Below are positions 20,700-42,032 of a stretch of 64,000 nt of DNA, piece after piece. The stretch's first letter is position 1. Every line of letters begins with the position of its first letter. The position numbers and the translations under genes are program-made. This DNA comes from Gammaproteobacteria bacterium (GTDB taxonomy: Bacteria; Pseudomonadota; Gammaproteobacteria; Pseudomonadales; Halieaceae): NCBI GenBank assembly GCA_030426545.1, contig JAUHYL010000004.1, positions 45,426 through 109,425 on the forward strand. Direction: 5' to 3'. The notes under the pieces were generated by a model. It was not told the origin of the DNA. It saw only the letters and a program-made list of their open reading frames with translations, and made no database searches.

Positions 20700-21881
20700 C
20701 TAGTCAGAGATTGGCCAGCGCGGATCACCTGTATAGAAGGCAAAGCGATCGGCAATCAGCTCCCTGGTCAGCCCATATTCGGCAAGGTCGTACTCGTGCT
20801 TGCCGTGTTTACCCTTGGGGTTGGCGTCGATGTGTGCTTGCATCGCATCGCGCGAGGCATCGTCCAGTGTCAGGTCAAAAGCGGCGTACACGCGCTGAAC
20901 CACGCCCAGCGGGTCGGCCACAAACTCTGCCTGAGAGCAATCCACAAACAGTGACGCGGGCAGCTTCTCGCGCATGGCAAGCCCCTGCTCCAGCGACAGT
21001 GCATACCACTCCATCACCGCGCGGCCAATCTCGCCTGCATCGAAGTGACTGCAGTCCCCGGCATACATATTCATGACCACCTTGTTCATGCTGTTGATCG
21101 ACGGCACAACTTTCTGCGGATCGCGATGACACCAGACGAAACGTGCATCCGGGAATACTTCGAGAATGGCATCGATACCCCACATGTGCGCTGGCGCTTT
21201 CAGCATCCACTGCTTGCCGGGATTGCGCCAGTTGAGGAGCTGCATCTGCTTTTTCTGGTACGCATACATGGGCACCAGGTCCTGCTTGAGCAACCAGCTG
21301 CGGTAGGGCTCAAGCATAATTTCAAAGCCCAGTTGAACGCCGGTAAACGCGAAGGCGTGGAGCAGCACGCATTCTTCTGGCGTATCTGCGTCGATAAAGT
21401 GAATCTTGGCGAAATCTGAATTGCGCGTTTCTTCCAGTGCTTTCACCAGGTAGGGATAGCGCGGGTCTTCCGCGCCGGGTTCGCTACCAGGCCAGGGATC
21501 CGGGAACTGCACTTCCCACTGCAGCAGGCCGCGGTTTGCCGGCGCGGCAACCAGCAGGTTTAGCAGTGCCGAAGTACCCGAGCGCGGCAGGCCGGTAACA
21601 AAAATGGGCGCCTCGATACGTTGCTCGGCGTATTCGGGAATCGTGCTAAAGGCGTTTTCGCACTTCAGGCGAGTGGCCAGTTGCATGGACACGCGCTGTC
21701 GGCAACGCGCCCTGCCCTCCTCATCGCGAATATTGCGGTCGTAGGTCTGAAGAAGCACCTCCAGGCCCTCGCGGTAGGGCAACTCACCAAAATCATCGAA
21801 ACCCGTTTGCTCGATGGCTTCCGCTATCAGTTCATCAGCGTCAAAACTGACGGCACTGTCACTGACTGCACTCGCACTCAT
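20700..21881 (-). CDS. Sulfotransferase family protein
   Basis: A 393-residue enzyme predicted to move a sulfuryl group from PAPS to an acceptor. The 5'-phosphosulfate-binding loop VTGLPRSGTSAL is at about 95-106, and the 3'-phosphate-binding region is represented by FVWCHRDPQKVVPSINS. The ATG at 21881 overlaps the stop of the DUF1214 gene (ATGA), so translation is coupled, and the longer frame to 21953 is not used. Such single-domain bacterial sulfotransferases often act on lipids or small metabolites. Its donor PAPS could come from the cysC-sat operon at 44-46 kb. Confidence 0.9.
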   Translation of the reverse strand: MSASAVSDSAVSFDADELIAEAIEQTGFDDFGELPYREGLEVLLQTYDRNIRDEEGRARCRQRVSMQLATRLKCENAFSTIPEYAEQRIEAPIFVTGLPRSGTSALLNLLVAAPANRGLLQWEVQFPDPWPGSEPGAEDPRYPYLVKALEETRNSDFAKIHFIDADTPEECVLLHAFAFTGVQLGFEIMLEPYRSWLLKQDLVPMYAYQKKQMQLLNWRNPGKQWMLKAPAHMWGIDAILEVFPDARFVWCHRDPQKVVPSINSMNKVVMNMYAGDCSHFDAGEIGRAVMEWYALSLEQGLAMREKLPASLFVDCSQAEFVADPLGVVQRVYAAFDLTLDDASRDAMQAHIDANPKGKHGKHEYDLAEYGLTRELIADRFAFYTGDPRWPISD

Positions 21882-22981
21882 TTCAACTCCGACAGTTTCG
21901 CTACCCGCGTATTCAAGGTGGGGTGCTTGTCCGCCCCTATCCAGCGCCAACACATGGTCCCCATGTTGTGACCCGCTGTCTCGATCCAGTTCGGCACGCC
22001 GGGATCAGTGTGTGAGACCACCACGCGTACGCTGCCATCCGGTTCGTAGTGCGCGGTGTGTTTGTTGACGTGTATTGTGTGGTGGCGGTAATCCAGGGAC
22101 TCCATCCACCAATTGTCCAGCTGGAAGTTCCAGGTCTGGCACTCGGGAATTTCTGGCGCCTCGATAATGAATACCTCGTCATCCTCGAGCTGCCAGGCGC
22201 TGTGAAAGTAAAATATGTTGGGGTCGCCGCCAATGGACTGGCAGTACGCCTGGTCCGCCGGGGGCAGTTCATTCAACGTGGGCAGAAAACTCTCTGACCA
22301 ATCCTCAAACATCTTTGCCGAGCCGTGGACAAACATCACCGCTCCCATTAATCCACGTTCGAGCTTCTCTGCTGTCAGCGGTTCCGGGCGGTCATCTGCC
22401 GCACCAATGCGCTCGATGGTCATCTCGGCGCGTTTTTCGTTAATGCGGTCCTGGAAGGTCTGGCGAACCGTGATCGAGTTGGTGCCCTCCTTCATCGGCA
22501 ACCAGTTACCCGGCTTTTCATCACGGCTGATGATGATCTCAATTTCTCCGTTGGGGCCAATGTCCATCTGGCGATGATCAATGTGACCGGTCACCTCCAT
22601 GGTGCCGTCAACTGCGTACTTGTTGATGATGGAGCTGATACCCAGGTAATCCACCGTGCCGCGGGTGCCGGTAATCTTGTAATCGTACCTGGGATTGATC
22701 GGTGCGCTCTCGTAGCGATTATCGGGGTTATCCGCGCCGAGCTTGATCGTCTCGTGGGCGCCACAGCGGAGCTGGGGGAACATCGGATCGCGAAATTCAA
22801 GAAAGCTCTCAAGGCCACCGCGCAGCAGGCGCGCCAGGTAACGATAGCCCTCCGCCTGATTGAAGGCATCCCTGGGTGCTTTCTCTGACTGGATGATTTT
22901 GCCGGCTTCCTTGAGAGTGTCGCAGAACTGCTCCCAGGTGGTGCCGTCCACTACGCGCTTTTCCGCATCTGACATCGACAT
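21878..22981 (-). CDS. DUF1214 domain-containing protein
   Basis: A 367-residue protein of unknown biochemical function. The C-terminal half carries the DUF1214 pattern: FYFHSAWQLEDDEVFIIEAPEIPECQTW, then WWMESLDYRHHTIHVNKHTA, then VVVSHTDPGVPNWIETAGHNMGTMCWRW. Many His and Trp residues in this block suggest a ligand or metal site. No signal peptide is visible. It ends in a four-base overlap with the sulfotransferase gene, so the two proteins are made together. Downstream coupling argues for a shared substrate, perhaps a sterol- or lipid-like acceptor; this is inference. Confidence 0.88.
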   Translation of the reverse strand: MSMSDAEKRVVDGTTWEQFCDTLKEAGKIIQSEKAPRDAFNQAEGYRYLARLLRGGLESFLEFRDPMFPQLRCGAHETIKLGADNPDNRYESAPINPRYDYKITGTRGTVDYLGISSIINKYAVDGTMEVTGHIDHRQMDIGPNGEIEIIISRDEKPGNWLPMKEGTNSITVRQTFQDRINEKRAEMTIERIGAADDRPEPLTAEKLERGLMGAVMFVHGSAKMFEDWSESFLPTLNELPPADQAYCQSIGGDPNIFYFHSAWQLEDDEVFIIEAPEIPECQTWNFQLDNWWMESLDYRHHTIHVNKHTAHYEPDGSVRVVVSHTDPGVPNWIETAGHNMGTMCWRWIGADKHPTLNTRVAKLSELK

Positions 22982-23139
22982 GCTGTTACCCGCTTGGCTG
23001 ACTTCGAGCCTGCCAGTGTGTTCAATGCACGGCGATGAATCAATGCGTAGACAGCGCTGCCGAGGCGGGGGTCTACCCCTTTGAACCGACGCCGCCGGAC
23101 CTGCCGCGGTTCGGGGGACAGGGGCGTCAGGCGGGGCGT

Positions 23140-25236
23140 TTAGCGCGCGAAATTGACGTAGATGGGCGATGTCCAGGCGCGAGGCTGCGCGGGGGCGGTA
23201 CAGTCCTCGCCGGGGCCGGCGTTCTCATCGATACAGTAATTGCGCTGCACACAGGCGCCACTGGCATCGTACACACAACCGAACGGGTCACCGCTGATTA
23301 GCGGTTCAGCCTCCTGTAGCACCCGTGCGTAGTAGAGCGACGGTCGTGCGGAAGCGACAAATTCCGGATCAGTGAACTCCACCGTGCAACCCTCCTCACT
23401 TGGCTCGCACTGGAATTCCCGCCAGCGATGCTCGATCAACGGCGCGATCGCCTCCTGCGGATTCTGCTGTGGGCGAATACGGGTGATTTCTATTCGCTCA
23501 ATGCGCTTGCGTTTGTCGCCTGGCCGGTAGCACTCACCACCACACAACGACGCGACACGCTCACGGCCCAACGCGGTGACGGCCTCCTCGGGGCAACCGG
23601 GCTGTTGTTCGAAGGCGCCCAGCGCCCTTACCCTGAACCGGGGCGACGTTGCCATATGCACCTCGCTGCCCATCGGTTGTTCACCAGAGGGCGCATTGAC
23701 AAGGTCAAACCATACCAGCATGCGATCACCGGAGGTCGCATAAACGTTGCGGGTATCTAGCGCTTTCCAGACTGCGTCGCGGTCGCGCCCGTTGGTATGC
23801 GCCGCCACCAGGCCGCCAGTGTAATAGAAACTGCCGGATTCCCTGTCTGCGGAGTAAGACCACGTGGGCTCGCCGGTAACACTCTTGTTGTCGGTCATAA
23901 TCGGGCGATTCAGTTCCTTGTAAGTGTTCCCCGGCCGGGCCACGTGGTTATCGGAAGAACCGATCAGGCCAAAACGAACCCGTTTAGGTGCGCCATTCTC
24001 GTCAAAACCGAGCGCGAGGTTGTACTGCGTGGACTGGCGCGGCACGTACATGGACGCGGGTTGAAAGCTGTTCTGCAGATGGCCACAGCCGGCCCAGTCG
24101 TCCACCGTAGCCTCGGGCAGCAGCTTGCGCCCCGCGCGCGGCCCTGCCTCAACATAGGCTGTCATGATGCTCTGTGCCTGTTGTTCACACTCGCCGGAAC
24201 CTGATTCACAGGCTGCGCGCGCGAGCTCGGCAGCCCGTCGACAGCACGGCGTAAAGTTCGCAGTGGGTTGCGGGCAATACAGTGTGCCATCGTCTGCCAC
24301 ACCCACGCGCTGAAAATCCTCGAAGCGTTCGGAATTGCCGTGCCCGGAGAACGTCTCCAGCAACTTCTGGTAGCGTGCTTCATATTCATCGAGTTGCCTG
24401 CGGAAGTCCGCCGTCAACGGATTGGTCGTACCCCAGGCAAGCCCGTGCGGAATCACCAGGCTGTCAAAACCCCACTCATCGAGTTTGCGGTACAGCTCGC
24501 TCGGTGTCAGTGCTACCTCTCGACAATCCGCGGGCAATTCATCAGCGGAGATGCCTTCGGGGCAAATCGGTACGGTGCTTGACTCGTTGTTATACCAGCC
24601 AAAATCACTGGTCTCCTTGCGGTCTTCTACCAGACTGATCAGGCCGAGCAGCGCTGACGGTACCTGCGCAGTAGGGTAGCGCTCCGCGGAGGCAATTGGC
24701 CGCGTGGGCGCCCGGCCGGGTTCCCAGGTACGGAAGATGACGTTTTTGTGGCCGAAGTGGCTGGGCACATCGTCGCTATTGCTGTTTGACCACTCCCAAC
24801 CCACCAGTGACACCATATCCGGATTGTCCGGGTCACCGCTCTGGGCGTTGCAGGCGCGAATCGCCTCCACCGTATCGGACCAGACCCGTGGCGTCAGACT
24901 CTCGGCGTGGTCGTTAATGCTCCAGAAATCCAGCGCCGAACAATAGCGCGCAAAATCACAGGCATCAGCCGGCGTGACAACACCGCCACCTTTTATCAAC
25001 TGGGTATTGAACAGGTAGGCGTCGAGAGAATAGTTGGTATGCGTGTGCAGATCGCCGAACAGTATCTGAGGCGTATCATCCGCGACTGTACGTTGCTCCC
25101 GAGGCCCGTCCGCGACGGGTGCTGATTCCCAGGGGCCACCACCAATCCAGCCTTTACCCACGGCGTGGAACCACAGCAGGACCGCGGCCACGGCAAGCAG
25201 GACGGCACACAGGACAATCAGGACAATTTTTTTCAT
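23140..25236 (-). CDS. DUF3604 domain-containing protein, membrane-anchored
   Basis: A 698-residue protein with one N-terminal hydrophobic segment (about 3-24), so it is exported and anchored or secreted. The DUF3604 domain begins FGDLHTHTNYSLDA (about 60-73), with a further INDHAE motif and NYxxxH-like stretches, resembling the metal site of PHP-type phosphoesterases. Other landmarks are LVGWEWSN, GHKNVIFR, and a late DNHVARPGNTYKE. The many Cys residues (CNAQSGDPDN, CPQPT, CCRRAAELARAACESGSGECEQQ, CYRPGD) suggest disulfides in the periplasm. It starts 37 bp after the sulfatase gene stop, so it is likely part of the same transcript. A hydrolytic role on a sugar or ester derivative is plausible but unproven. 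The frame begins with GTG 25239; ATG 25236 is used. Confidence 0.85.
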   Translation of the reverse strand: MKKIVLIVLCAVLLAVAAVLLWFHAVGKGWIGGGPWESAPVADGPREQRTVADDTPQILFGDLHTHTNYSLDAYLFNTQLIKGGGVVTPADACDFARYCSALDFWSINDHAESLTPRVWSDTVEAIRACNAQSGDPDNPDMVSLVGWEWSNSNSDDVPSHFGHKNVIFRTWEPGRAPTRPIASAERYPTAQVPSALLGLISLVEDRKETSDFGWYNNESSTVPICPEGISADELPADCREVALTPSELYRKLDEWGFDSLVIPHGLAWGTTNPLTADFRRQLDEYEARYQKLLETFSGHGNSERFEDFQRVGVADDGTLYCPQPTANFTPCCRRAAELARAACESGSGECEQQAQSIMTAYVEAGPRAGRKLLPEATVDDWAGCGHLQNSFQPASMYVPRQSTQYNLALGFDENGAPKRVRFGLIGSSDNHVARPGNTYKELNRPIMTDNKSVTGEPTWSYSADRESGSFYYTGGLVAAHTNGRDRDAVWKALDTRNVYATSGDRMLVWFDLVNAPSGEQPMGSEVHMATSPRFRVRALGAFEQQPGCPEEAVTALGRERVASLCGGECYRPGDKRKRIERIEITRIRPQQNPQEAIAPLIEHRWREFQCEPSEEGCTVEFTDPEFVASARPSLYYARVLQEAEPLISGDPFGCVYDASGACVQRNYCIDENAGPGEDCTAPAQPRAWTSPIYVNFAR

Positions 25237-25273
25237 CACACCTACCCGCCTCCCAGAACCGGCAAGGCCACAA

Positions 25274-26833
25274 TTACAGTAGTTTCAACAGCCACTCGAA
25301 GACCCGTATGACGGGGCCGTGATACCACGGCACCTCCGGGTCTTCCTCGGGAACGGCATAGTGTTTTCGCAGATTCGCCAGGTCGTCTTTCAGACGGCGC
25401 ACCAGCTGTTGATGGCGGTCGCTGCCATACAGGTTAACTTGTTCGCCGGGATCGCTCTCAATATCAAACAGCTCCCATTCATCGTAACGGTAGTAGTGAA
25501 CGAGCTTGTATCGACCCGCATGGATACCGTAGTGCCGGGGCACACCGTGAAACCCGGGATTCTCGTAAAAATGGTAGTACAGGTGACGACTCCAGTCACT
25601 GACTTCACCTGTCAACAAGGGCATCAAGCTGATGCCGTGCATGGGTTCTGGCGGCTGAATGCCGGCGGCGTCCAGCAGCGTGGGCGCAAAGTCAATGTTC
25701 TGCACGAGCGCACTGTTCACGCTGCCCGCCTCGACACGGGCGGGCCAGCGCAGCAGTAGCGGCACCCGGGAGGACACTTCATCCATCCAGCGCTTGTCAA
25801 ACCAGCCGTTCTCGCCGAGAAAGAAGCCCTGGTCAGACGTGTAAACGACGAGGGTGTTGTCCATCAGTCCGCGGGCTTCCAGGTAGTCGAGTAAGCGCCC
25901 GATTTCCCGATCCATGCTGCGCACCGATGCGATATAGGTCTTGATGTAGCGCTGGTACTTCCAGCGAACTGTCTCATCCGCGCTGAGGTCCGCCTGCTCG
26001 TATTGACGGTTCCCCTCGGCAAAGGCCTGCTCCCAGATAGCGGCCTGCTGCGGTGTGAGATTGCGCGCCATACTGAGCTTTACATCGCCGTTGGTCATGT
26101 AATCCGCGATGCGCATTCGGGCATCCTGTCGCGCCTCGGTGGCGCCCGCCAGATCGCGCAGCAAGGTGGGCGGCTCCTGCACACGTGCAGCCTCGTCCCA
26201 GCCGCGAAGTTCCTGCGGCCCCGGTAACCAGTCGCGGTGTGGCGTTTTGTGGTTGTATAACAGGAAGAAGGGCTGCTCGCCGTCCGCGACGCTGTTCAGC
26301 CAGCTGAGTGCTTTATCGGTTACCAGCTCCGCAACGTAACCGTTTACCTGCTCCACTCCGGCCGGGCTTCGGAACTCCGGGTTGTAATAGGTGCCCTGTT
26401 CAAAGGCGTTGTTAATAACCTCCCAGTGGTCAAAACCCACAGGATCACTGTACAGGTGCCACTTGCCAATAACGGCAGTGCGATAACCCGCTCCCTGCAA
26501 CAGCGTGGACAGCGTTTGCTGTGTGCCATCAAAGGGCCCGGACCATTCGTTGCTGTAGAAGCCGTTGGCGTGGCTGTGATTCCCGGTCAGCATGGTGGCA
26601 CGACTGGGCCCGCAGATCGCATTGCCGACATAAGCGCGATCAAACCGCATGCCGCCTGCGGCGATGCGATCGATATTGGGTGTCTGCATCAGGCTGTCAT
26701 CGTAGGCACTGACTGCACGCACAGCATGGTCGTCCGACATGATAAAGACGATGTTGGGGCGTTCTGCGGCCTGTGCCACTGGATACACCGACAATGCCGC
26801 AAAGACGCACAGAACCCAACCAGATAGCTTCAT
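25274..26833 (-). CDS. Exported sulfatase (formylglycine type)
   Basis: A 519-residue arylsulfatase-family enzyme that hydrolyses sulfate esters. Residues 1-22 are a signal peptide (PVAQAAERP). The metal-binding DD is at 34-35 and the sulfatase signature CGPSRATMLTG begins at Cys74, the residue converted to formylglycine. GKWHLY and the later TSDQGFFLGE complete the active site, and the C-terminus (YKLVHYYRYDEWELFDIESDPGE) is typical of the S1 family. The start at 26833 has GGGAGG upstream; the frame runs to 26875. No formylglycine-generating enzyme is encoded in this window, so maturation must rely on one elsewhere. Confidence 0.94.
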   Translation of the reverse strand: MKLSGWVLCVFAALSVYPVAQAAERPNIVFIMSDDHAVRAVSAYDDSLMQTPNIDRIAAGGMRFDRAYVGNAICGPSRATMLTGNHSHANGFYSNEWSGPFDGTQQTLSTLLQGAGYRTAVIGKWHLYSDPVGFDHWEVINNAFEQGTYYNPEFRSPAGVEQVNGYVAELVTDKALSWLNSVADGEQPFFLLYNHKTPHRDWLPGPQELRGWDEAARVQEPPTLLRDLAGATEARQDARMRIADYMTNGDVKLSMARNLTPQQAAIWEQAFAEGNRQYEQADLSADETVRWKYQRYIKTYIASVRSMDREIGRLLDYLEARGLMDNTLVVYTSDQGFFLGENGWFDKRWMDEVSSRVPLLLRWPARVEAGSVNSALVQNIDFAPTLLDAAGIQPPEPMHGISLMPLLTGEVSDWSRHLYYHFYENPGFHGVPRHYGIHAGRYKLVHYYRYDEWELFDIESDPGEQVNLYGSDRHQQLVRRLKDDLANLRKHYAVPEEDPEVPWYHGPVIRVFEWLLKLL

Positions 26834-26878
26834 CGATCCTCCCTTAAATCTATGCCAGCGGCGAATCTGCACCACCCT

Positions 26879-28603
26879 TCATCTCGGTAGCTCAATACTG
26901 ACAAGATCACTCTCCTCCCAGCCGTAGCGTACCGCCCTGGCCTGTACACTGTTAGCGCCGCGCAGGGGAACGGGATCGGTATAAACGTGCCAGGTATCCC
27001 CGTCCAGGCGATAACCCATCGACGCGCCCTCGACTGCACTGACCAGTTCCATCACCCCTGCCTTCACGCTGATCCTGGGCGGAGGTGTTTTTTCAATCTC
27101 GCCACCGGGCATGAACTGCGCCACCATGTCCGCTTCGCTCTGTTCGCTCCAGTCGCCCACATCACGCTGCCAGCGCGCAACTTCATCGCGTAGCCGGCCC
27201 AGCACAGCGGCATGGGCCGGGTCCTGCGATAGATCTTTTAACTCGTAGGGGTCGGCGAGAATATCAAACAGCCGCTCAGTTCCGGGCGGCTCGAACCAGC
27301 GCTTCTGCTCAGTATTCAGCTTGCCCTGCTCATACAACGCGCGCATTTCGCGCATCATGGGAATATTGTCGCGAAACGCCAGCGCGTGACCGCCTGGCAA
27401 CTGCGGATGCCAACTGCGAATGTACTTGTAGCGCTGATCCCGCACCGCTCTCTGTCGGTCTGGCACTTCGTCAATGCGATCGCGCGCGGCATACACATAC
27501 TCTCTTGGCTCGACCTTGACGATGTCGCGCCCGTGAAGATAGGACGGCACCTCAACGCCGGCAACGCGCAGTAAAGTTGGCGCCAGATCCACCAGGCTGA
27601 TCAGGCGCTCATCCAGGCTGCCTGGCGCCACGTCGTGCGGCCGCAAGGCCGCGGGCCAGCGGATAATCATCGGCACGCGAATTCCGGAATCGTACAGTTC
27701 GCGCTTTGCCCGCGGCAGTCCATCGCCGTGATCTGTGGTCCAGACCACAATTGTGTTATCGGCCAGCCCATCGGCTTCAAGCTGGGCGAGCAACGCACCC
27801 ACCTGGGCGTCCATGACCGTGATATTGGTGTAGTGCCGTGCGATGTCGTTACGTACGGTGTCGGTATCGGGGTAGTAAGGCGGCAGGGGCACCTCCGAAG
27901 CCTGCACGGTGCGCGACACCTCAACGTCAGGGGATTGCGCCCAACGCAACCACTGCATAACAAAGTGTGTAACGCTGTGCGGCCATGCGCCCAGCGGCGG
28001 AAACACACCGCTTTCATGCGTAACGGGGAAATTCACCAGGCCGAAAAAAGGCTGGCCGACGGCCCGGTTACGCCAGTGGGTACCACTGCCCTCCTCGCTC
28101 CAGATCGTGAAGGGGCCGGATCCGCGCAGTGTGCCACTGAACTGGTAATCGAGTTTATGGTCGGTATACGTGTAATAGCCGGCCGCACGCAACAATTCAG
28201 GATACGCCTTGACCTTCGGCGGCGGCACGGACTTGTAACCACCCGCAGGCCGACTGCTGCTGCGCATGTGTTGCGTGCCGGTAGACATCTGGTGCATACC
28301 CAGAATGTGCGCAGCGCGACTGGGCGCGCAGACACCTGCGGTGGTAAAGGTGTTCGGGTAACGCACACCCTGCTTTGCCAGCGCATCAAGATGCGGTGTC
28401 ACCGCTACGGGGTCGCCAAAGGCACCGACACGCGCACTCATGTCCTCCGCCATCAGCAGCAGGATATTGGGTCGGTCTTCGGCGAGCGCATGGGCAGCTT
28501 GCAAGAAAGCCAGCAACAGCAGCCCGTTGCAAACCAGCAGCCTTTTCACTGCAGCCTGCGCAAAAGCGCTGGCGGCGAGGCGGGCGAGTTCGCTCACATT
28601 CAT
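26879..28603 (-). CDS. Exported sulfatase (formylglycine type), second copy
   Basis: A 574-residue sulfatase clearly different from its neighbour. The signal/anchor segment lies around 20-41, then EDRPNILLLMAEDMS gives the metal site (Asp54, with Glu53 where Asp is usual), and CAPSRAAHILG begins at Cys92, the formylglycine position. The TTDHGDGLPRAKRELYDSG region and IRSWHPQLPGG near the C-terminus resemble N-sulfoglucosamine sulfohydrolase-like S1 members. The start at ATG 28603 is preferred; the frame continues to 28660 but would overlap the GMC gene. It is 45 bp upstream of the other sulfatase and 10 bp after the GMC stop, so all are likely one transcript. The exact sulfated sugar is unknown. 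Confidence 0.93.
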   Translation of the reverse strand: MNVSELARLAASAFAQAAVKRLLVCNGLLLLAFLQAAHALAEDRPNILLLMAEDMSARVGAFGDPVAVTPHLDALAKQGVRYPNTFTTAGVCAPSRAAHILGMHQMSTGTQHMRSSSRPAGGYKSVPPPKVKAYPELLRAAGYYTYTDHKLDYQFSGTLRGSGPFTIWSEEGSGTHWRNRAVGQPFFGLVNFPVTHESGVFPPLGAWPHSVTHFVMQWLRWAQSPDVEVSRTVQASEVPLPPYYPDTDTVRNDIARHYTNITVMDAQVGALLAQLEADGLADNTIVVWTTDHGDGLPRAKRELYDSGIRVPMIIRWPAALRPHDVAPGSLDERLISLVDLAPTLLRVAGVEVPSYLHGRDIVKVEPREYVYAARDRIDEVPDRQRAVRDQRYKYIRSWHPQLPGGHALAFRDNIPMMREMRALYEQGKLNTEQKRWFEPPGTERLFDILADPYELKDLSQDPAHAAVLGRLRDEVARWQRDVGDWSEQSEADMVAQFMPGGEIEKTPPPRISVKAGVMELVSAVEGASMGYRLDGDTWHVYTDPVPLRGANSVQARAVRYGWEESDLVSIELPR

Positions 28604-28613
28604 CACGATTACG

Positions 28614-33517: not shown

Positions 33518-34141
33518 TCAGGCGGTTAATCCGCCAGACCAGGTGCTGTCATCGGGCGAGAGTGGGTAGTCGCCGTCGAATTCCATGGGCATCGGGTCAT
33601 GCCGTAACACCTGTGTTGCGCCGACTTCCGAGGTAAAAAACCCCCACACAGTTAATTCCTTTATCTGACAGATGAAGGGCGCATCGCTGATAAAGGCGCG
33701 CAGCACATTACCAAACTCGTACCACGATGAATCACCTGCCGCCGATTCCAGCTTCTCCAGAATCTGCTCTTGCTGATCTTTCTCCAACTCGACAAATGGC
33801 CTGCCAAGCTCAAGGGGAACTCTGGTCTGCAAATCCTTCAGGCCAGCATCGAAAATCGCCCGCTCGTCGTCACTGAACCAATCGGACACCATCAGTTCGA
33901 TGTAGCGCGGCACACCGGCATCGACAGCACCGGGTGTTTCGTCGCGGGGGATAATGACGTCGGCGATGGCAGTCACAATAGCGCGTTGCTCAGCGTTGAA
34001 ATAGCTCACCGCTGTGTGAATGTAATTTGGCGCCGATGCAAGGTACTGGCTCTGTTCTTCACTGAGCGCGAAACCGAGCTGGCTCGCGCTGGCGCCGGTA
34101 ACAATCAGCGTTGCGCACTGCATAAATTCTCTACGATTCAC
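33518..34141 (-). CDS. Gluconate 2-dehydrogenase subunit 3-like protein (copy B)
   Basis: A 207-residue paralogue of the small subunit at 30374-30994, with the same NRREFMQ signal and DVIIPRDETPGAVDAGVPRYIELM core. The start needs a choice: the frame opens with GTG at 34147, but GAGGAG sits five bases before the GTG at 34141, and that start also aligns with the paralogue's MNRREF, so 34141 is used. Its stop is 8 bp from the GMC copy B ATG. It should form the exported complex with copy B. Confidence 0.9.
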   Translation of the reverse strand: MNRREFMQCATLIVTGASASQLGFALSEEQSQYLASAPNYIHTAVSYFNAEQRAIVTAIADVIIPRDETPGAVDAGVPRYIELMVSDWFSDDERAIFDAGLKDLQTRVPLELGRPFVELEKDQQEQILEKLESAAGDSSWYEFGNVLRAFISDAPFICQIKELTVWGFFTSEVGATQVLRHDPMPMEFDGDYPLSPDDSTWSGGLTA

Positions 34142-34187
34142 GACCACTCCTCACTATGCCTGACGGGTAACTGTGCCTGTGTATTGC

Positions 34188-34448
34188 TCACTTTGCGCCA
34201 CGCATCCGGCGCACCAGCGGCGGCAGGAAAATAATCAGTGCGGCCACTGCGGTGCACGCGTAGAGCTTGTAGGGCCACGCACCAAAGTAATACCCGGCCG
34301 CTTTGAATGCCCCATAGCCATAATAAATTGGTTCAATGTGCGTCAGATGATACAACTCGTAGAAACCAGTAGCCGTGGCCGGCAACAGAAAATAGAGATA
34401 CAGCGCCACGGCAATTGCGATTATCCAGCGGCGTTTCGAAAAAAACAT
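34188..34448 (-). CDS. Small two-helix membrane protein of unknown function
   Basis: An 86-residue protein with two hydrophobic segments (about 8-27 and 63-79) joined by a Tyr/Gly-rich loop (YYGYGAFKAAGYYFGAW), and a basic end (RRMRGAK). Not recognised. It sits between the TIM-barrel gene and small-subunit copy B with short gaps, so it is likely part of the same transcript. It might hold the dehydrogenase at the membrane or pass electrons on, but nothing in the sequence shows a haem or quinone site. Confidence 0.75.
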   Translation of the reverse strand: MFFSKRRWIIAIAVALYLYFLLPATATGFYELYHLTHIEPIYYGYGAFKAAGYYFGAWPYKLYACTAVAALIIFLPPLVRRMRGAK

Positions 34449-34473
34449 GGGCTCCTCCTAAACCGTTGCGTGA

Positions 34474-35349
34474 CTATGCAGTCGCTTGCGAACGAGATTC
34501 AGCGTGGTGAATGTGATCGCGAATAAACGCGATGCCGCTCTCGTACAGCTCCTCTGGCGAATGAAAGGTGTTGCGCCAGACATTGGCCGCCGCGGCGAGA
34601 TCGCTGTCTGCGGTGCCGAAAGCCTCGATTACCAGCCAGCCACGGTAGTTGATGTCCTGCAACGCCGAAAAGCTGGCCCCCCAGTCAACCTGCCCGGTGC
34701 CCAGCGTTCCCCGATGGCTTTCACTCAGGTGAACATGATTCAACACGTCCCGGCAGGCCATTAACGCCTCCCGCGGATCCGGCTCCTCGATATTGGCGTG
34801 ATGAGTATCGTAGTGCACGCCCACGTTGGGCAGGCCCACTTGCTCTACCATGCGCTTGCACTCCTGCGAGGTATTGATAAGAAACACTTCGAAGCGATTG
34901 AGAAACTCCAGGCCGAGACGAACCCCGACACTCTGCGCATACTCACCGCAAGTTCGCAGGTATTCGGCTGACCAGTTCCACTCCTGCTCTGTAGGGCCCT
35001 GGCCAGTAAAGTACTTGTGCGCCTGGTAGATGCCGCCCACCAGGGTATCTGCACCGATCAACCGCGCATCGTCGATACCTTTTTTCAGATTTTCGATCGC
35101 GGCACCGCGTACCTTCGGGTCAGGCGAAATGGGGTTGACCTCCTCCCCAACAAAGGCAGATGCCGTGCGCGCCAGACCTAGATCGTCACAGGCTGCAGCC
35201 ATTGTCGCCAGTTCTCCGCGCGATTGGCCGACCACAGGGATTTCCACGCCGTCATAGCCGGCTCGAGCCAAACCCTCAAAGACGGGTATGTGTTCAGGTG
35301 TAATCTGGATGCCCCAGAGGAGCATGTTCATGCCTATTTTTACGTCCAT
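34474..35349 (-). CDS. Sugar isomerase/epimerase-like TIM-barrel protein (tagatose/allulose 3-epimerase type)
   Basis: A 291-residue protein of the xylose-isomerase-like TIM barrel (AP endonuclease 2 family). Four metal-binding landmarks can be read in order: Glu in LEFLNRFE (about 147-154), Asp in VHYDTHH (about 182-188), His in HVHLSESHRG (about 209), and Glu in LVIEAFG (about 240). The NRFE feature is the signature of ketose 3-epimerases. The alternative is a role in keto-glycoside processing, as related proteins do in C-glycoside cleavage. It starts 3 bp after the MFS stop, so they are co-transcribed. Confidence 0.88.
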   Translation of the reverse strand: MDVKIGMNMLLWGIQITPEHIPVFEGLARAGYDGVEIPVVGQSRGELATMAAACDDLGLARTASAFVGEEVNPISPDPKVRGAAIENLKKGIDDARLIGADTLVGGIYQAHKYFTGQGPTEQEWNWSAEYLRTCGEYAQSVGVRLGLEFLNRFEVFLINTSQECKRMVEQVGLPNVGVHYDTHHANIEEPDPREALMACRDVLNHVHLSESHRGTLGTGQVDWGASFSALQDINYRGWLVIEAFGTADSDLAAAANVWRNTFHSPEELYESGIAFIRDHIHHAESRSQATA

Positions 35350-35352
35350 CCG

Positions 35353-36669
35353 CTACGCTGCACCCTCGCCGATGCTCTGGGCCCGATGACCACCGCGACG
35401 TCGATCTGCCAGCCAGATAACACCAAAAACCGGCAGCAGGAGTAACGGCACAATCGCGACCGACTGAAAGGATTCAACCGACGCATAGCGCGTGACCTCG
35501 ATCAGGGCCTCTGGCGAGAGGGAATCGAGCATCGCGACGCCACCTGCTGCCTCCGCCTTGGCGCGATCAAAGATCGCACCCATTTCAGGCAGGACGAACT
35601 GTATGGACATGCCGCCTGCAAAACCCATCAGGCCCATCGCCATGGCGCCGCCGCGGGGAAACCGCTCCGACACGATGGCCAGCATGGTCGGCCACATCCA
35701 GCATACGCCCAGCCCCCAGACTGTGGCCGCCCCGAACGCCAATAGCGGGGTATCGGCAAGGCTGAGCAGGTAGAGCCCAATGCCCGCCGCCAGACAGCTG
35801 ACAAACATCAGCCCTATGGGTGAAATCCTGTTGACGATGGGACCGGCAAAGTGTCGCCCGACGAACATCAACGCACTCACATACACCAGCAGCAGGATGC
35901 CCTGCATGCCAACAATATTGGACAGCGCAATGTTTACCCACTGCCCCGGCGCCAGTTCCGCCGCTGCAGTCAGAAACATACAAACCCAGAACACCCAGAA
36001 CATGGGCCTGCGGACCAGCTCTGCGAACATGTCGCGGTAGCTGACACCGGCTGCCACGCGTTCCGTCACGGGAAATGCCGAGGTAGCCACCAACCACGCC
36101 AGCACCAGCGCTGGCGCCAGCAGCACAAACATATTGAGCTTCCAGTCCAGTCCGAACCGGGTAAGGGCAAAGCCCAGCAAACCGCCAACCACAATGCCCG
36201 CGGGCCACCAGGCGTGAAGAATGTTCAAGCGATGCGTTTTTTCTTCCGGGTAAAGGGCCGCCACCATTGGATTCGAGGCCGCTTCCACCGCTCCCCATCC
36301 CAGTCCGGTCAACAGCAAGCTCACCAAAACGACCATTTCCACGCCACCGCTGGCATCCAGCGTGGTCGCCCAGAGCAGCCCCACGGCGCCGGCGATATAG
36401 CCCAGCGCCGAGAGCAGCAGCATGCGCTTCATGCCGATCAGATCAACCAGCGCGCTGCCAAACAGCAGCGTCAGCGCAAAACCGGTAAAGGTTGCTCCCA
36501 ACGCCTCGCCCACCATCGTGGCGGAATTGACCAGATCAATCTTGTCGTAGATATCTTCTTTCAGATTGGGGGCAATATTGGCACGCACAGCAAAGCCAAG
36601 ACCGATCATGAAGATCGACAGGTTGCCCACGTAGTAGAGACGTTTGCGGTCCACCGCTTGATCAATCAT
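35353..36669 (-). CDS. MFS transporter, sugar-type
   Basis: A 438-residue protein with about 12 hydrophobic helices and the MFS pattern: a loop with GMKRMLLLSALGYIAGA between helices 2 and 3, and a matching motif in the second half. The signal is typical of FucP-like sugar or sugar-acid:H+ symporters, but the substrate cannot be told. It lies between the two TIM-barrel isomerase genes (3 and 32 bp gaps), making it the probable cytoplasmic importer for the sugar or keto-sugar that they act on. Confidence 0.9.
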   Translation of the reverse strand: MIDQAVDRKRLYYVGNLSIFMIGLGFAVRANIAPNLKEDIYDKIDLVNSATMVGEALGATFTGFALTLLFGSALVDLIGMKRMLLLSALGYIAGAVGLLWATTLDASGGVEMVVLVSLLLTGLGWGAVEAASNPMVAALYPEEKTHRLNILHAWWPAGIVVGGLLGFALTRFGLDWKLNMFVLLAPALVLAWLVATSAFPVTERVAAGVSYRDMFAELVRRPMFWVFWVCMFLTAAAELAPGQWVNIALSNIVGMQGILLLVYVSALMFVGRHFAGPIVNRISPIGLMFVSCLAAGIGLYLLSLADTPLLAFGAATVWGLGVCWMWPTMLAIVSERFPRGGAMAMGLMGFAGGMSIQFVLPEMGAIFDRAKAEAAGGVAMLDSLSPEALIEVTRYASVESFQSVAIVPLLLLPVFGVIWLADRRRGGHRAQSIGEGAA

Positions 36670-36701
36670 GCTTCGAACTCCGATGTAACATTATTATCAT
36701 T

Positions 36702-37757
36702 CTAGTCCAGCCCGAGTATACGCCGATTCGATGCCTCGTCGGCACTGCCGCCGGCAAAATCATCGAAGGCCTTGTCCGTGGTTCGAATAATGTGTCGGTT
36801 GATAAAGTCCACGCCCTCGCGCGCTCCATCTTCGGGGTGTTTCAGGCAACACTCCCATTCCAGCACCGCCCAGCCCTCAAAGCCGTACTTTGCAAACTGA
36901 CTGAAGATGGCGCTGAAATCCACCTGGCCATCGCCCAGTGAGCGGAATCTACCGGGTCGATCCACCCAGCCCTGGTAGCCGCCATAGACGCCGCTACGGC
37001 CGTTGGGATTGAACTCCGCATCTTTGACGTGAAACATGCGAATGCGCTCGTGGTAAATGTCGATGAACTGGATGTAATCCAGCTGCTGCAGCACAAAGTG
37101 GCTGGGATCGTACAAAATATTGCAGCGCGCGTGATTACCGGTCGCCTCCAGGAAGCGCTCGAAGGTCACCCCGTCATGCAGGTCTTCACCCGGGTGAATC
37201 TCGTAGCACAGATCGACACCCGCCTCATCGAACGCGTTAAGAATAGGCAACCAGCGTTTGGCCAGTTCGCTAAAGCCGGTTTCAACGAGACCTTCGGGAC
37301 GCTGCGGCCAGGGATACATAGTGTGCCAGAGCAGCGCGCCGGAAAAAGTGACGTGCGCGCTGAGACCCATGTTGGCGCTGGCCTTGGCGGCCAGTAACAG
37401 CTGATTCACAGCCCACTCCTGTCGTGCCCGGGGATTGCCGTGTACTTCCGGCGGCGCAAACCCGTCAAACATCTGGTCGTAAGCCGGGTGCACGGCTACT
37501 AGCTGCCCCTGCAGATGCGTGGACAGCTCTGAAATCTCTACATCGTTCTCAGCGCAGATGCCCAGCAGTTCATCACAGTAATCCTTGCTCTGTGCCGCTT
37601 GTTCCAGGTCGATCAGGCGCGGATCCCAGGTCGGCACCTGCACGCCCTTGTACCCGAGATCTCCCGCCCATCGGGTAATCCCCGGCAGTGAATCGAACGG
37701 GGCTTCAGCGCCGGCAAATTGGGCCAGGAAGATGGCCGGTCCTTTCATTTTCGACAT
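36702..37757 (-). CDS. Sugar phosphate isomerase/epimerase-like TIM-barrel protein
   Basis: A 351-residue member of the xylose-isomerase-like TIM barrels, longer than the other copy and not a close paralogue. Metal-binding landmarks are CYEIHPGEDLHDG (about 183), NILYDPSHFVLQQLDY (about 215), FHVKDAEFN (about 244) and LEWECCLKHPEDG (about 305). The ATG at 37757 follows GAGGA; an ATG three codons on is possible. It is 89 bp downstream of the Gfo/Idh gene. Relatives take part in inositol and keto-glycoside catabolism; exact reaction unknown. Confidence 0.88.
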   Translation of the reverse strand: MSKMKGPAIFLAQFAGAEAPFDSLPGITRWAGDLGYKGVQVPTWDPRLIDLEQAAQSKDYCDELLGICAENDVEISELSTHLQGQLVAVHPAYDQMFDGFAPPEVHGNPRARQEWAVNQLLLAAKASANMGLSAHVTFSGALLWHTMYPWPQRPEGLVETGFSELAKRWLPILNAFDEAGVDLCYEIHPGEDLHDGVTFERFLEATGNHARCNILYDPSHFVLQQLDYIQFIDIYHERIRMFHVKDAEFNPNGRSGVYGGYQGWVDRPGRFRSLGDGQVDFSAIFSQFAKYGFEGWAVLEWECCLKHPEDGAREGVDFINRHIIRTTDKAFDDFAGGSADEASNRRILGLD

Positions 37758-37846
37758 GGGTATGTCCTCTACTGGTTAAATGCTGCGCGGGTAAAAGGAG
37801 CGACGGCGTCTGGCACTACTTTCACGGTCGCTTCGGTGGCGCGTCG

Positions 37847-39004
37847 TCACTGCTGCACGAACGGATGCCATTTTTCGTCGCTGGCGCTCGCCGCGACAGC
37901 CAACTCGATAAACTGCATGCCGCGAATCGCCTCTTCAATGCCGGGGCAATCCTGCCCGCGCGCGTCACAGGGCGCATTCGCTTCGCGCGCGCGAATCTGC
38001 GCGGCGAAACCCATGTACAGGTTGGCGAATGCTTCCAGGTAACCCTCGGGGTGACCCATGGGTGTACGCGTATTGGCCGCGGCGAGCGCGCCCAGGTAGT
38101 CGCCGCCTGTGCGTAGCATTTCAGTGGGCCTGTCGTTCCACTTCAGCCACAGGGTGTTGGGTTCCTGCTGTTTCCACTCGAGGCCACCCTTTTCACCATA
38201 GACGCGAATGCTCAGCGCGTTTTCCTCGCCGGCGCTGACCTGGCTGGCGTGCAGAACACCCTTGGCCCCAGTATTGAAACGCAGCAGCACGGCACCGTCG
38301 TCGTCCAGTTCTCTGCCGGGCACGAATGCCGTCAAATCGGCGCAGATTGCAGATAATTGCAAACCACTCACATACTCGGCGAGATTGGCGGCGTGCACAC
38401 CGATATCTCCCATGCAGGAGCTGACACCCGCCTGCTTCGGATCCAGACGCCAGGCGGCCTGCTTGTTGTCCTGGTCTTCCTGACGATCTGCCAACCAGCC
38501 CTGCGGATACTCCACCACCACCCTGCGAACTTCGCCCAACTCTCCGGCAGCCACGCGTTCGCGCGCCTCCTTGACCAGTGGGTAGCCGGTATACGTATGC
38601 GTCAGACCGTAAAGACGCCCGGTTTCGTTAATGATATCGCGCAGCTGCAATGCTTCATTCAGGTTGAACGTTGCAGGCTTGTCGGACATGACATGGAACC
38701 CGGCATGCAGTGCCGCCTCCGCCACCGGAAAGTGCAGATGGTTGGGCGTCACCACGGCAACGAACTGCATGCGCTGTGCTTCCGGCAGCGCGGCCTCGGC
38801 GTCGAACATTTCAGAATAGCTGTCATAGACACGATCCGGCGGTAAATACAGCGCCGCGCCCGAGCGCCTGCTGGTCTGCGCATCGCTGCTGAACGCACCA
38901 CACACCAGTTCAATCTCACCGTCCAGGGCCGCCGCCATACGGTGAACTGCACCGATGAACGCGCCCTCGCCGCCGCCGACCATTCCCATTCGAACTTTCG
39001 CCAT
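37847..39004 (-). CDS. Gfo/Idh/MocA family oxidoreductase
   Basis: A 385-residue NAD(P)-dependent sugar oxidoreductase. The Rossmann motif GMVGGGEGAFIG is at the N-terminus, and the family EKP-type motif appears as SDKPATFNLNEA (about 127). His and Lys residues further on (SCMGDIGVHAANLAEYV) fit the active site. The start at ATG 39004 follows a strong AGGAGG; the frame continues to 39103. Family members oxidise or reduce sugar C1-C3 positions and split keto-glycosides by transient oxidation. It is transcribed first in the run that includes both TIM-barrel genes and the MFS gene. Confidence 0.92.
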   Translation of the reverse strand: MAKVRMGMVGGGEGAFIGAVHRMAAALDGEIELVCGAFSSDAQTSRRSGAALYLPPDRVYDSYSEMFDAEAALPEAQRMQFVAVVTPNHLHFPVAEAALHAGFHVMSDKPATFNLNEALQLRDIINETGRLYGLTHTYTGYPLVKEARERVAAGELGEVRRVVVEYPQGWLADRQEDQDNKQAAWRLDPKQAGVSSCMGDIGVHAANLAEYVSGLQLSAICADLTAFVPGRELDDDGAVLLRFNTGAKGVLHASQVSAGEENALSIRVYGEKGGLEWKQQEPNTLWLKWNDRPTEMLRTGGDYLGALAAANTRTPMGHPEGYLEAFANLYMGFAAQIRAREANAPCDARGQDCPGIEEAIRGMQFIELAVAASASDEKWHPFVQQ

Positions 39005-39095
39005 CCAGTTGTCCTCCTCGCTGGCACTATTGCGTTTACAGGGCCAGGGCGTGGTGCACGGCAAGTCACACCACCACGGCCCATTCTGCATACAA

Positions 39096-39111
39096 CGTCG
39101 CAATTGCGACG
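39096..39111. promoter_or_regulatory. Perfect 16-bp palindrome upstream of the Gfo/Idh gene
   Basis: CGTCGCAATTGCGACG is a perfect palindrome lying 92 bp before the Gfo/Idh ATG. Outside it, TGCATACAA on one side and TTGTGCA on the other are imperfect outer arms, so the dyad is larger. It looks like the operator of a dimeric regulator (LacI or GntR type) that would control the Gfo/Idh-TIM-MFS run. The regulator is not identified. Confidence 0.5.
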
Positions 39112-39194
39112 CCCTTGTGCACTTCTATCCCGCTATAAGCCTCACTAGAACCCTGTTGCGTTCGGGTTGTCCCGACGTCACCGGCGGTGCTGAC

Positions 39195-40529
39195 TCATAA
39201 GTATTGATTGATGACGTTCTCGTACCATTCCTGCTTTCCGCTAAGCGTTTCCGGTTCGCCACTGTCCAGCGCAAGATCGCGCAGTGCCGAAAGGTCCAGT
39301 TCACCGCGCGCGAAACGCGCCCCGTCACCACTGTCGAAACTGGCGTAGCGCGCCTGTTTGCGCTCCACAATACCGGAGCGTTCGCGCAGCGCATGCGCCA
39401 CTTCCAGTGCGCGGGCGAAGGTATCCATAGCGCCGATATGGCCTATAAAAATATCCTCCAGATCAACCGACTCGCGACGGACCTTGGCGTCGAAATTGAG
39501 ACCGCCACTACCAAAACCGCCGTCGGCCAGAAGCACCAGCATGGCCTGAATGGCGTCATATAGATCGGTGGCAAACTGATCGGTGTCCCAGCCATTCTGT
39601 GGATCGCCGCGGTTGGCGTCGATGCTGCCCAGCAGCCCGGCGTCAGTGCACATCTGGAGTTCGTGGGCAAAGCTATGGCCGGCGAGCGTGGCGTGATTGG
39701 CCTCTACGTTGACCTTGAAGTCATCTGCAAGGTCGTAGTGGCGCAAAAAGCCGATGACGGTTTGGGCGTCGAAATCGTACTGGTGTTTGCTGGGCTCCAT
39801 CGGTTTCGGCTCAATCAGAAATGTCCCCTGAAACCCGATGCTGCGACCGTAATCCCGTGCTGCGTGCAAGAATCGGGCAAGGTGATCCATCTCGCGCCGC
39901 GTGTCGGTATTGATGAGCGCGGCGTAGCCCTCGCGGCCACCCCAGAAGACATAGTTCTCTCCGCCCAACTCGACCGTTGCCTCCAGCGCAGCCTTCACCT
40001 GGGCCGCGGCATGGGTCACCACCGCGAAGTCGGGATTGGTTGCCGCACCGTTCATGTAACGCGGATGGCCAAAAAGGTTCGCCGTTCCCCAGAGCAACTT
40101 CATACCTGTGGCGTCCTGGCGCTCCCTGGCCAGCGCCACCATCGCCGCCAGGTTGCGCTCTGATTCAGCAACGTTTTCGCCTTCAGGTGCCATATCGCGA
40201 TCATGAAAGCAGTAGTACGGCGCTCCGAGCTTGGTAAAGAACTCGAAGGCGGCATCCATTCTAGAGCGCGCTGCGCGCATTTCCTCAACAGGTTCATCCC
40301 AGGGAAACATCTGCGTATCGACGCCGAACGGGTCCGCGCCCTTCGCACAGAAGGTGTGCCAGTAGCAGACGGCAAAGCGCAGGTGTTCAGCCATGGTCTT
40401 ACCGGCTACCACTTTGCCCGCGTCGTAGAATTTGAATGCCAGCGGATTGTCCGACTCGCGCCCCTCGAAAGCGATCTTGCCTATGCCGGGAAAATACTCG
40501 CGGTCACCGGTAAAGTAGCTGTGTGTCAT
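39195..40529 (-). CDS. xylA: Xylose isomerase
   Basis: A 444-residue enzyme of the class II XylA type, converting D-xylose to D-xylulose with divalent metal ions in the cytoplasm. Signatures include the [11 protein letters not shown] region, the catalytic [10 protein letters not shown] (His109, Asp112), the [20 protein letters not shown] segment and WGGREGY, plus the [13 protein letters not shown] stretch. The gene is 21 bp after xylB on the same strand, and the pair forms a xylose operon. A second gene block starts 190 bp downstream (Gfo/Idh). Confidence 0.97.
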
Positions 40530-40550
40530 GTCACTCTCCTTTGCCTGTAT

Positions 40551-42032
40551 TCATGGATAGAGCGTGCCGATCACCGCAACGTGTCGCAGATAGTTGGCAT
40601 AATATTCCTCGTAAAGAGCAGCCACATCGGCGCGGGGCTCACAGGATCGCGCTTCGTCTACGGCAAGGTGCGCATCCAGCAGTGCGGGCAGCGACCCAGC
40701 GCAATCGCCGGCGTGCATCCACAGCGCCTGCAGGGCCGCACCCAGTGCCGCACCCTCGTCCACCGCCTGCACGGTGACCGGCAACTGGAAGACATCGGCA
40801 ACCATCTGGCGCCAGGCGGCGCTTTGTGCCCCACCGCCTGTCAGCCTTACGCTGCTCACCGGCAGACCGAGGTCGGCAAGCCCGTCCAGCCCTGCACGCA
40901 GACCGTAAACGGCAGACTCCATCGCGGACCGCAGCAGGTTGTCGCGATGATAGTTGCCTTCATCAAGCCCCAGGATGCAGGCCTTGGCATTGGGCAGGTT
41001 GGGCGTTCGCTCGCCGTTGAAGAACGGTAGTGTGAGCACGCCACCAGCGCCAGGAGGAACTGACTCCGTCGCCGCCTGTAGCGCATCCAGGCTAAGCCCA
41101 AACAGCTGTCGGGACACTTCCGTTGCCACGGTGCAATTCATCGTGCACAGCAGGGGCAGCCAACCTCCCGTGGAGGAACAGAAGGCAGCGATGTTGCCCG
41201 CCGGATCGATTAAAGGCTCACTGGAAAAGGCAAACAGCGTTCCCGACGTGCCAAGGCTGACGGTGAGCCTGCCGGGACTGACATTCCCCGTGCCAATCGC
41301 CGCCATCATGTTGTCGCCGCCCCCGGTCGCGACAGGAATACCCGGCGGCAGGCCCAGCGTCGCGGCACTGGCGGGACGCAGGCAGCCCATCTGTTCACCC
41401 GCGTCGAGTAGCACCGGCAAGGCGTCACCAAGATCGCGCTGATCATCGATTGCACGGAGGGCGGCGTCGTGCCAACGGCGCTCACGGACGTTCATCAACC
41501 CGGTGCCCGAGGCATCGCCATACTCCATGGCGAGCTCCCCGGTCAGAGAGTAATTGATGTAATCGTGCGGCAGCAAAATCGTGGTGAGTTTTGCGTAAGA
41601 CTCAGGGTGGTGCTTCTTCAACCAGAGAATTTTTGCTGCTGTATAGCCGGGTAATACGGGATTGCCCATCTGCGCGATACAGGCTTCCTCGCCGCCGAGG
41701 GCAGCAGTGATCTCCGCGCACTCCACCGTTGTTGCGGTATCACACCACAGCTTCACTGGCGCCAGCACCTCGCCGTCGGCGCCCAGCGGAACAAAGCCAT
41801 GCTGTTGCGCCGACACACCCACCGCCTGTACCTGCGCGCGCAAGCCAGGATCAAACTCCTGCAAGCACGCGCCCAGCGCGTCAAGCCACCACTGCGCCTC
41901 TTGTTCACGGGTGCCATCCGCTTCACTGATCAGCCGCAGTGGTGCGCTCGCAACGGCCGCGACCTCGCGCGACTGGGCGTCATAGATGAGCGCTTTTACG
42001 CTCTGGGTGCCGACATCAATACCAAGGTACAT
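40551..42032 (-). CDS. xylB: Xylulokinase
   Basis: The 493-residue FGGY kinase phosphorylates D-xylulose to D-xylulose 5-phosphate. The N-terminal ATPase motif GIDVGTQSVKALI, the QMGNPVLPGYTAAKILWL substrate region, and VATGGGDNMMAAIGTG with the catalytic Asp (about 235) are all present, as is the C-terminal LTGGGAQSAAWRQM. ATG 42032 is used; the frame extends to 42068 but starts weakly. It is divergent from the AraC-type regulator, with a 20-bp-spaced direct repeat in between. Confidence 0.96.
   Translation of the reverse strand: MYLGIDVGTQSVKALIYDAQSREVAAVASAPLRLISEADGTREQEAQWWLDALGACLQEFDPGLRAQVQAVGVSAQQHGFVPLGADGEVLAPVKLWCDTATTVECAEITAALGGEEACIAQMGNPVLPGYTAAKILWLKKHHPESYAKLTTILLPHDYINYSLTGELAMEYGDASGTGLMNVRERRWHDAALRAIDDQRDLGDALPVLLDAGEQMGCLRPASAATLGLPPGIPVATGGGDNMMAAIGTGNVSPGRLTVSLGTSGTLFAFSSEPLIDPAGNIAAFCSSTGGWLPLLCTMNCTVATEVSRQLFGLSLDALQAATESVPPGAGGVLTLPFFNGERTPNLPNAKACILGLDEGNYHRDNLLRSAMESAVYGLRAGLDGLADLGLPVSSVRLTGGGAQSAAWRQMVADVFQLPVTVQAVDEGAALGAALQALWMHAGDCAGSLPALLDAHLAVDEARSCEPRADVAALYEEYYANYLRHVAVIGTLYP

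Follow-up and report, generated by a model that had tools for sequence, protein, structure and literature searches.

The locus described here raises the question of how a sulfated glycoside might be taken apart where genes for sulfatases and for sugar oxidation stand together and no glycoside hydrolase (GH) gene stands with them. The ocean is rich in sulfated carbohydrate, and its breakdown has mostly been described in terms of sulfatases and glycoside hydrolases. The locus lies in a gammaproteobacterium of the family Halieaceae (GenBank assembly GCA_030426545.1, contig JAUHYL010000004.1, positions 45,426 to 109,425 of the forward strand), and the window is this whole stretch of 64,000 nucleotides. 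In the window, 17 consecutive minus-strand genes span positions 20700-42068 and are referred to as the island. Combining what was established directly, i.e. the gene set, the gene order, the family matches and the conservation of each module, we suggest that the island is probably a composite catabolic locus, with core genes that match those of known keto-glycoside pathways, and that it acts on a sulfated glycoside whose sugar finally appears as xylose.

The argument for an oxidative route starts from TIM2, which matches a solved structure named 2-hydroxy-3-keto-glucal hydratase (PDB 8ro4) and by this kinship would supply the hydratase of an oxidation-elimination-hydration-reduction pathway. 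The adjoining gene encodes Gfo, which matches 3v5n and 3dty, both named merely oxidoreductases, and whose best NCBIfam model, levoglucosan dehydrogenase, scores 91 bits against a cut-off of 650; its family and its place beside the hydratase gene suggest a 3-keto-sugar reductase. GMC2, with its closest named relatives in HTCC2148, Halioglobus and Haliea, has matches to the fructose dehydrogenase large subunit and, for its C-terminal part, to pyranose oxidase, and family and motif together predict FAD-dependent GMC dehydrogenases with small subunits exported by the twin-arginine translocation (Tat) pathway. The preliminary description of this DNA had proposed an oxidative keto-glycoside route, and the match of TIM2 to 8ro4 together with these partners supports that proposal. 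The MFS gene adjoins TIM2 in many relatives. XylA and XylB both score above the NCBIfam equivalog cut-offs, and by this measure the genes of the xylose isomerase pathway are genuine.

S1a and S1b belong to the Sulfatase family and carry the CxPSR maturation motif, as type I (S1) sulfatases do, and their hydrophobic N-termini, judged by eye, predict export. Nearest to S1b are the S1_8 sulfatases of a lambda-carrageenan system of Pseudoalteromonas, of which S1_8B and S1_8C are assigned as exo 2-O-sulfatases in the accessible part of the report (PMC12549532); unlike that system, the island has no carrageenase or galactosidase. A 2-O-sulfatase would fit a pathway needing a free C2. For the DUF3604 protein, the structural model (predicted local distance difference test score, pLDDT, 76) has as its top Foldseek match the PHP-like phosphoesterase 3e38 (E 1.1e-3, TM 0.24 to query), and this fold match and the GDLHTHT motif hint at a PHP-like enzyme. 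Across the genome, PF00884 has 20 matches in all, and PF03781 matches two reading frames, although not every PF03781 protein is a maturase. A further sulfatase of different fold, an alkyl-sulfatase type metallo-beta-lactamase, is encoded at 2890-4440 (+) of the window.

In the pathway that we propose, (i) exported S1a and S1b, perhaps with the DUF3604 protein, would take off sulfate in the periplasm, (ii) the Tat-exported GMC/Gluconate_2-dh3 dehydrogenase would oxidise C3 of the sugar and pass the electrons to the membrane, probably via an 86-aa protein, (iii) the MFS carrier would import the 3-keto-glycoside, (iv) the aglycone would be released by beta-elimination, (v) Gfo would reduce the 3-keto sugar, and (vi) XylA and XylB would convert xylose to xylulose 5-phosphate.

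The core of the island is of a known kind because its make-up is shared by an Agrobacterium operon, the levoglucosan pathway and several plasmid regions. As far as the available text of the report goes, the operon of Agrobacterium tumefaciens encodes a flavin dehydrogenase with a Tat protein, two sugar phosphate isomerases/epimerases and a Gfo protein; C3 is oxidised by GlycDH and the aglycone is split off by AtOGE, and hydration of the glycal and reduction of 3-keto-glucose are tentatively attributed to AtHYD and Gfo, respectively (PMC10628242). The island thus has in common with it a flavin C3-dehydrogenase with Tat partner, a hydratase-type TIM barrel, Gfo and a second TIM barrel; it differs by an MFS carrier, where an Agrobacterium plasmid has ABC genes next to its TIM2 relative, and by the addition of sulfatases, DUF3604, xylAB and the 86-aa protein. 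The levoglucosan pathway LgdA-B1-B2-C of Bacillus smithii, again according to the accessible part of the source, follows the same logic of oxidation, elimination, hydration and reduction on a different substrate, with LgdA for the first step that in the island presumably falls to a GMC flavoprotein (PMC7676230). Loci of Pseudoalteromonas, Hymenobacter and Xanthomonas sacchari share Gfo, TIM2, a permease, GMC, Gluconate_2-dh3 and a further TIM barrel; all three carry DUF1080, two of them cytochrome c, and none has an annotated sulfatase or xylAB. The Hymenobacter region has an annotated GH65 gene at its edge.

The genes that the preliminary description had listed are all present on the minus strand where it placed them (Table 1), as borne out by Pfam families and, for xylAB, by the equivalog scores. 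Pfam was run on 50 window proteins, a subset of the window's open reading frames, and separately on the 86-aa gene. That description did not include DUF3604, DUF1214, the 86-aa gene or the AraC-type regulator. Taking the longest open reading frame as the start of each gene, the largest intergenic gap in the island is 158 bp and there are two overlaps. The order of transcription is xylB, xylA, Gfo, TIM2, MFS, TIM1, 86-aa gene, G2D2, GMC2, SDR, G2D1, GMC1, S1b, S1a, DUF3604, DUF1214, sulfotransferase. The divergent AraC-type gene likely encodes the regulator of the locus: of the 12 complete loci of the genus (window counted), 9 have an orthologue next to them, as do 13 of the 30 relatives read overall, several of which are truncated by contig ends, and a relative (43%) adjoins Gfo in Pseudoalteromonas.

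Table 1. Features of the island and its divergent regulator (positions in the window).
Feature	Position	Strand	Basis or remark
Sulfotransferase	20700..21953	-	conserved neighbour at site
DUF1214 protein	21878..22981	-	conserved neighbour at site
DUF3604 protein, predicted membrane-anchored PHP-like metallohydrolase	23140..25239	-	sulfatase neighbour; GDLHTHT motif near start
S1a sulfatase	25274..26875	-	nearest 5g2v (469 bits); CGPSR motif
S1b sulfatase	26879..28660	-	nearest S1_8 sulfatases (231 bits); CAPSR motif
GMC1 flavoprotein dehydrogenase	28614..30326	-	75% identical to GMC2; ACHYCGPC cluster
G2D1, Gluconate_2-dh3 small subunit	30374..30994	-	NRREFM Tat-like motif
SDR	31061..31720	-	Pfam family
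GMC2 flavoprotein dehydrogenase	31803..33509	-	ACHYCGPC cysteine cluster
G2D2, Gluconate_2-dh3 small subunit	33518..34147	-	N-terminal NRREFM Tat-like motif
86-aa small membrane-type protein (SM)	34188..34448	-	no Pfam family; conserved
TIM1, ketose-3-epimerase-like TIM barrel; candidate eliminase or 3-keto epimerase	34474..35349	-	sequence, fold, residues
MFS transporter, predicted importer of keto-glycoside or sugar	35353..36669	-	MFS_1 101 bits
TIM2, 2-hydroxy-3-keto-glycal hydratase family	36702..37757	-	PDB 8ro4 619.6 bits, residues 2-350
Gfo/Idh/MocA oxidoreductase, predicted 3-keto-sugar reductase	37847..39103	-	3v5n 364 bits
XylA xylose isomerase	39195..40529	-	TIGR02630 672 bits, cut-off 533
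XylB xylulokinase	40551..42068	-	TIGR01312 529 bits, cut-off 380
AraC-type regulator with PAS domain	42242..42994	+	HTH_18, PAS_4; divergent from island

A recent tandem duplication as the origin of GMC1 and GMC2 is unsupported; the two are 75% identical to each other, and GMC2 pairs with the gene of HTCC2148 (L001) and GMC1 with those of L005 and G123 (genomes and loci of the comparison carry G and L numbers). A third GMC/Gluconate_2-dh3 pair (69/59% to the island pairs) is found elsewhere in the same genome (L164, contig C22, ~12500-19000), adjoining a ThuA-family gene and with a P450 nearby.

At E 1e-60, 32 of the 140 family genomes contain TIM2, and the surroundings were read in 30 relatives and the window. 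Because relatives carry these genes in the same arrangement, the island is more than a chance assembly. Of the 18 genomes of the genus, 16 carry TIM2; contig ends truncate four of the loci (G118, G122, G127, G131), and each of the 12 complete ones is preceded by all or part of one and the same LysR-CysC-Sat-DHH row. Four of the 12 have the core without xylAB or sulfatases (G120, G121, G126, G128), three the core with xylAB only (G117, G125, G130), one the core with sulfatases only (G119) and four all three modules (window, G115, G116, G123). The locus of Halioglobus japonicus (L007) consists of the core only. Co-occurrence in other genomes was proposed in the preliminary description as a check; the gene order recurs, and xylAB, sulfatases and GH3 vary between loci. 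Among 11 plasmid regions around TIM2 relatives, hand-picked from 371 matching records, Gfo is near in 10, GMC in four and xylA in three. DUF1080 is also present in three of the four GMC regions; the fourth, from Novosphingobium, has a TIM barrel with DUF6379, which we take to be linked to C-glycoside eliminases, plus genes annotated as GH43 and GH1. TIM2 and Gfo lie with xylA and a sugar ABC transporter, in two of three cases also with xylB, in Sulfitobacter, Azospirillum and Pseudosulfitobacter (L113, L114, L250); the stretches read hold no GMC gene.

The observations that weigh against our interpretation concern the elimination step, the linkage of the modules, the hydrolase and the substrate. 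Elimination is the weakest step of the proposed pathway. Pfam finds no known eliminase family (PF06439/DUF1080, CGE partner) in the island, and TIM1 groups with epimerases by sequence and fold: it has the sequence, the fold and the Glu-Asp-His-Glu residues of the ketose 3-epimerase superfamily, with E148, D181, H207 and E242 invariant across 21 sequences, and scores 150 bits, below the curated cut-off of 300, with the NCBIfam D-psicose 3-epimerase equivalog. AtOGE (8bvk) is not among its 48 profile matches; the fold search did not separate epimerase from eliminase, and the absence of 8BVK from the matches listed there is uninformative. Moreover, TIM1 cannot be the sole eliminase because the near-complete genomes G116 and G126 keep the core without it. 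All six genomes outside the genus with TIM1 at no less than 60% identity have TIM2 (Fisher p=2e-6), a value to be read with the caution that the Fisher tests used here ignore relatedness and that the 60% line was set after the hits were seen; TIM2 is missing from six more genomes of the family, whose TIM1 relatives are weaker (44-47%). Given these data, one alternative is that TIM1 is a 3-keto-glycoside epimerase like YcjR of Escherichia coli, the locus converting an epimeric glycoside, e.g. an L-arabinopyranoside or a galactoside, to the xylo- or gluco- form and another enzyme making the cut. We regard this alternative as possible but doubtful: TIM1 occupies the place after the MFS gene that DUF1080 has in Pseudoalteromonas, and without TIM1 no eliminase candidate remains in the island. 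We retain TIM1, with slightly less than even confidence, as the best candidate for the eliminase within the island; otherwise elimination may depend on an enzyme from elsewhere, e.g. one of the two PF06439 matches in the remainder of the genome.

With regard to linkage, xylAB and sulfatases are separable from the core, which lacks sulfatases in 7 of the 12 complete loci of the genus, and none of the 11 plasmid TIM2 regions has an annotated sulfatase. S1b, S1a and DUF3604 form a cassette of their own: S1a and S1b (at least 60% identity) lie beside DUF3604 in 8 of the 12 DUF3604 stretches read, and the cassette is found at a site other than the fully read core in G117, G126, G130 and G028 and, in G010, in a genome without TIM2. 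In G053 and G118 it lies on a different contig from a cut-off core, so that the two could still be linked there, and in G127 it is a piece of that genome's own split island. Near one sulfatase-DUF3604 cassette, a 1156-aa protein joins ThuA, glucose/sorbosone dehydrogenase, PKD and weak cytochrome c matches (L233:15381-18848). The separate occurrence of the cassette suggests a second alternative, in which two unrelated systems share the site, a keto-glycoside/xylose locus and a sulfatase-DUF3604 cassette for a sulfated polymer that was inserted by chance. We consider this unlikely on four grounds: (i) the spacing is tight, with a 47 bp overlap of GMC1 and S1b and gaps of 3 bp between S1b and S1a and of 34 bp between S1a and DUF3604; (ii) the neighbourhood recurs outside the genus, in G052, where the core stands with S1b, DUF3604 and further sulfatases without xylAB, and G135 has other, sulfatase-like genes (24-35% identity) beside its core; (iii) DUF3604 at 60% identity or more, scored among up to eight candidates per genome, occurs in 18 of 140 genomes, 15 of them with TIM2, and coincides with TIM2 outside the genus in 4 of 6 (Fisher p=0.0026); and (iv) in the GMC tree the genes of sulfatase-bearing loci mostly fall into one group, the exceptions being G115, G052 and G135. 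On that tree the sulfatase label, i.e. any S1a or S1b match within 15 kb, needs three changes compared with 6.6 after shuffling (as few in 2 of 500 shuffles), although near relatives cluster anyway.

With regard to the hydrolase, the only one among the scanned window proteins is a lytic transglycosylase, whose gene (56141-57559) lies outside the island, and the genome (4.35 Mb in 141 contigs, 97.85% complete; the window ends at a contig end) has no match to GH3 or GH43, the two families sought genome-wide. Pfam detects neither SusD nor a glycoside hydrolase in the island, which sets it apart from polysaccharide utilisation loci of the Bacteroidota type. The absence of a hydrolase noted in the preliminary description thus holds for the window; as a defining trait of the island it does not, since GH3 genes (662-682 aa) lie inside the same island of G115, G116 and G121, and an adjacent hydrolase gene is close to what that description had itself named as telling against it. 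Three GMC loci, L005, L061 and, at 55%, L015, also have GH3 genes, as does G127 on contigs holding other island pieces; in total 14 of 18 genus genomes have GH3, in several solely away from the island, and those free of it are the window's, G123 (99% complete), G118 (89%) and G122 (87%). Because sister islands carry GH3, the missing hydrolase is a variant and not the rule, and GH3-free variants are found in the window and in G123, each of which has sulfatases and xylAB. That the cut is instead hydrolytic, the oxidative genes serving another substrate and the present genome having lost the route or having its GH3 gene in an assembly gap, finds support in these GH3 genes and in the fragmented assembly, but is quite improbable given that the window's island is an unbroken stretch without GH3 and that G123 lacks GH3 genome-wide yet keeps xylAB, core and sulfatases.

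The nature of the substrate is likewise inferred from the genes. The preliminary description had named a sulfated xyloside, and xylAB and sulfatases are indeed both present; each occurs at the site without the other. XylA is found in 20 of 140 family genomes, and its overlap with TIM2 outside the genus (2 of 6, p=0.18) is not significant. The nearest solved relative of S1a, 5g2v, is an N-acetylglucosamine-6-sulfatase, and this kinship weighs against a xyloside because the xylose ring has no position 6; a 6-O-sulfatase would point to a hexose. A sulfated xyloside as the settled substrate was rejected as unproven, the clustering of sulfatase-bearing loci in the GMC tree being confounded by near relatives.

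The 86-aa protein belongs to no Pfam family and has hydrophobic stretches at both ends, as judged by eye. Of 80 distinct sequences with a Gluconate_2-dh3 gene, 38 carry the gene for this protein next to the small subunit (50 of 92 before removal of 12 duplicate contigs), and no match was found on any searched sequence without a Gluconate_2-dh3 gene. In two of the three plasmid relatives with DUF1080 the cluster has cytochrome c instead, and the sole CxxCH match among the tested island proteins lies within the GMC1 cysteine cluster. We suggest the 86-aa protein as a candidate membrane anchor or electron carrier for the dehydrogenase.

The DUF1214-sulfotransferase pair stands at the end of all 12 complete genus loci whatever other modules are present and lies away from the core in G044 (L245), and DUF1214 is found in 86 of 140 family genomes. 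A role of the sulfotransferase in the pathway is therefore unlikely, and the two genes are probably residents of the site, beside sulfate-activation genes, and not catabolic; the single catabolic island from xylB to the sulfotransferase, as first described, stands as a gene run and probably not as a pathway at its sulfotransferase end. On the opposite flank, genes for ATP sulfurylase and adenosine 5'-phosphosulfate (APS) kinase, with a DHH protein, lie at 44297-46126 (-), and such genes flank the island, wholly or partly, in complete genus loci. Possibly, the island splits a sulfation locus with ATP sulfurylase/APS kinase on one side and the sulfotransferase on the other. A TonB receptor gene lies on the island flank at 16040-18319 (+), and its relatives (71-74%) in G116 and G127 adjoin the island at the sulfotransferase end.

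The oxidation-elimination-hydration-reduction pathway itself has already been described, to judge from the accessible parts of the two reports (PMC10628242, PMC7676230). Of the combination that first looked new, the coupling to sulfatases remains. The likely novel features are that a sulfatase-DUF3604 cassette is coupled to the pathway, that GH3-free variants exist and that a conserved 86-aa protein accompanies the dehydrogenase. No prior description of such a sulfatase/keto-glycoside locus was found in the open-access literature of one library, and a survey that counts sulfatases and carbohydrate-active enzymes of six Halieaceae describes none in its available part (PMC10100682). A bolder version, in which a sulfatase-gated, hydrolase-free route degrades a sulfated xyloside, TIM1 is a new 3-keto-glycoside eliminase derived from ketose 3-epimerases and the 86-aa protein, as a new electron-transfer subunit of the membrane, replaces the cytochrome c of other lineages, is a long way from probable.

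If our interpretation of the island as a composite catabolic locus is true, sulfatases combined with C3 oxidation and elimination would constitute a second way to degrade sulfated carbohydrate. The genus offers natural contrasts at one site, with and without GH3, sulfatases and xylAB, and these make the assignment of the substrate testable by comparison of strains.

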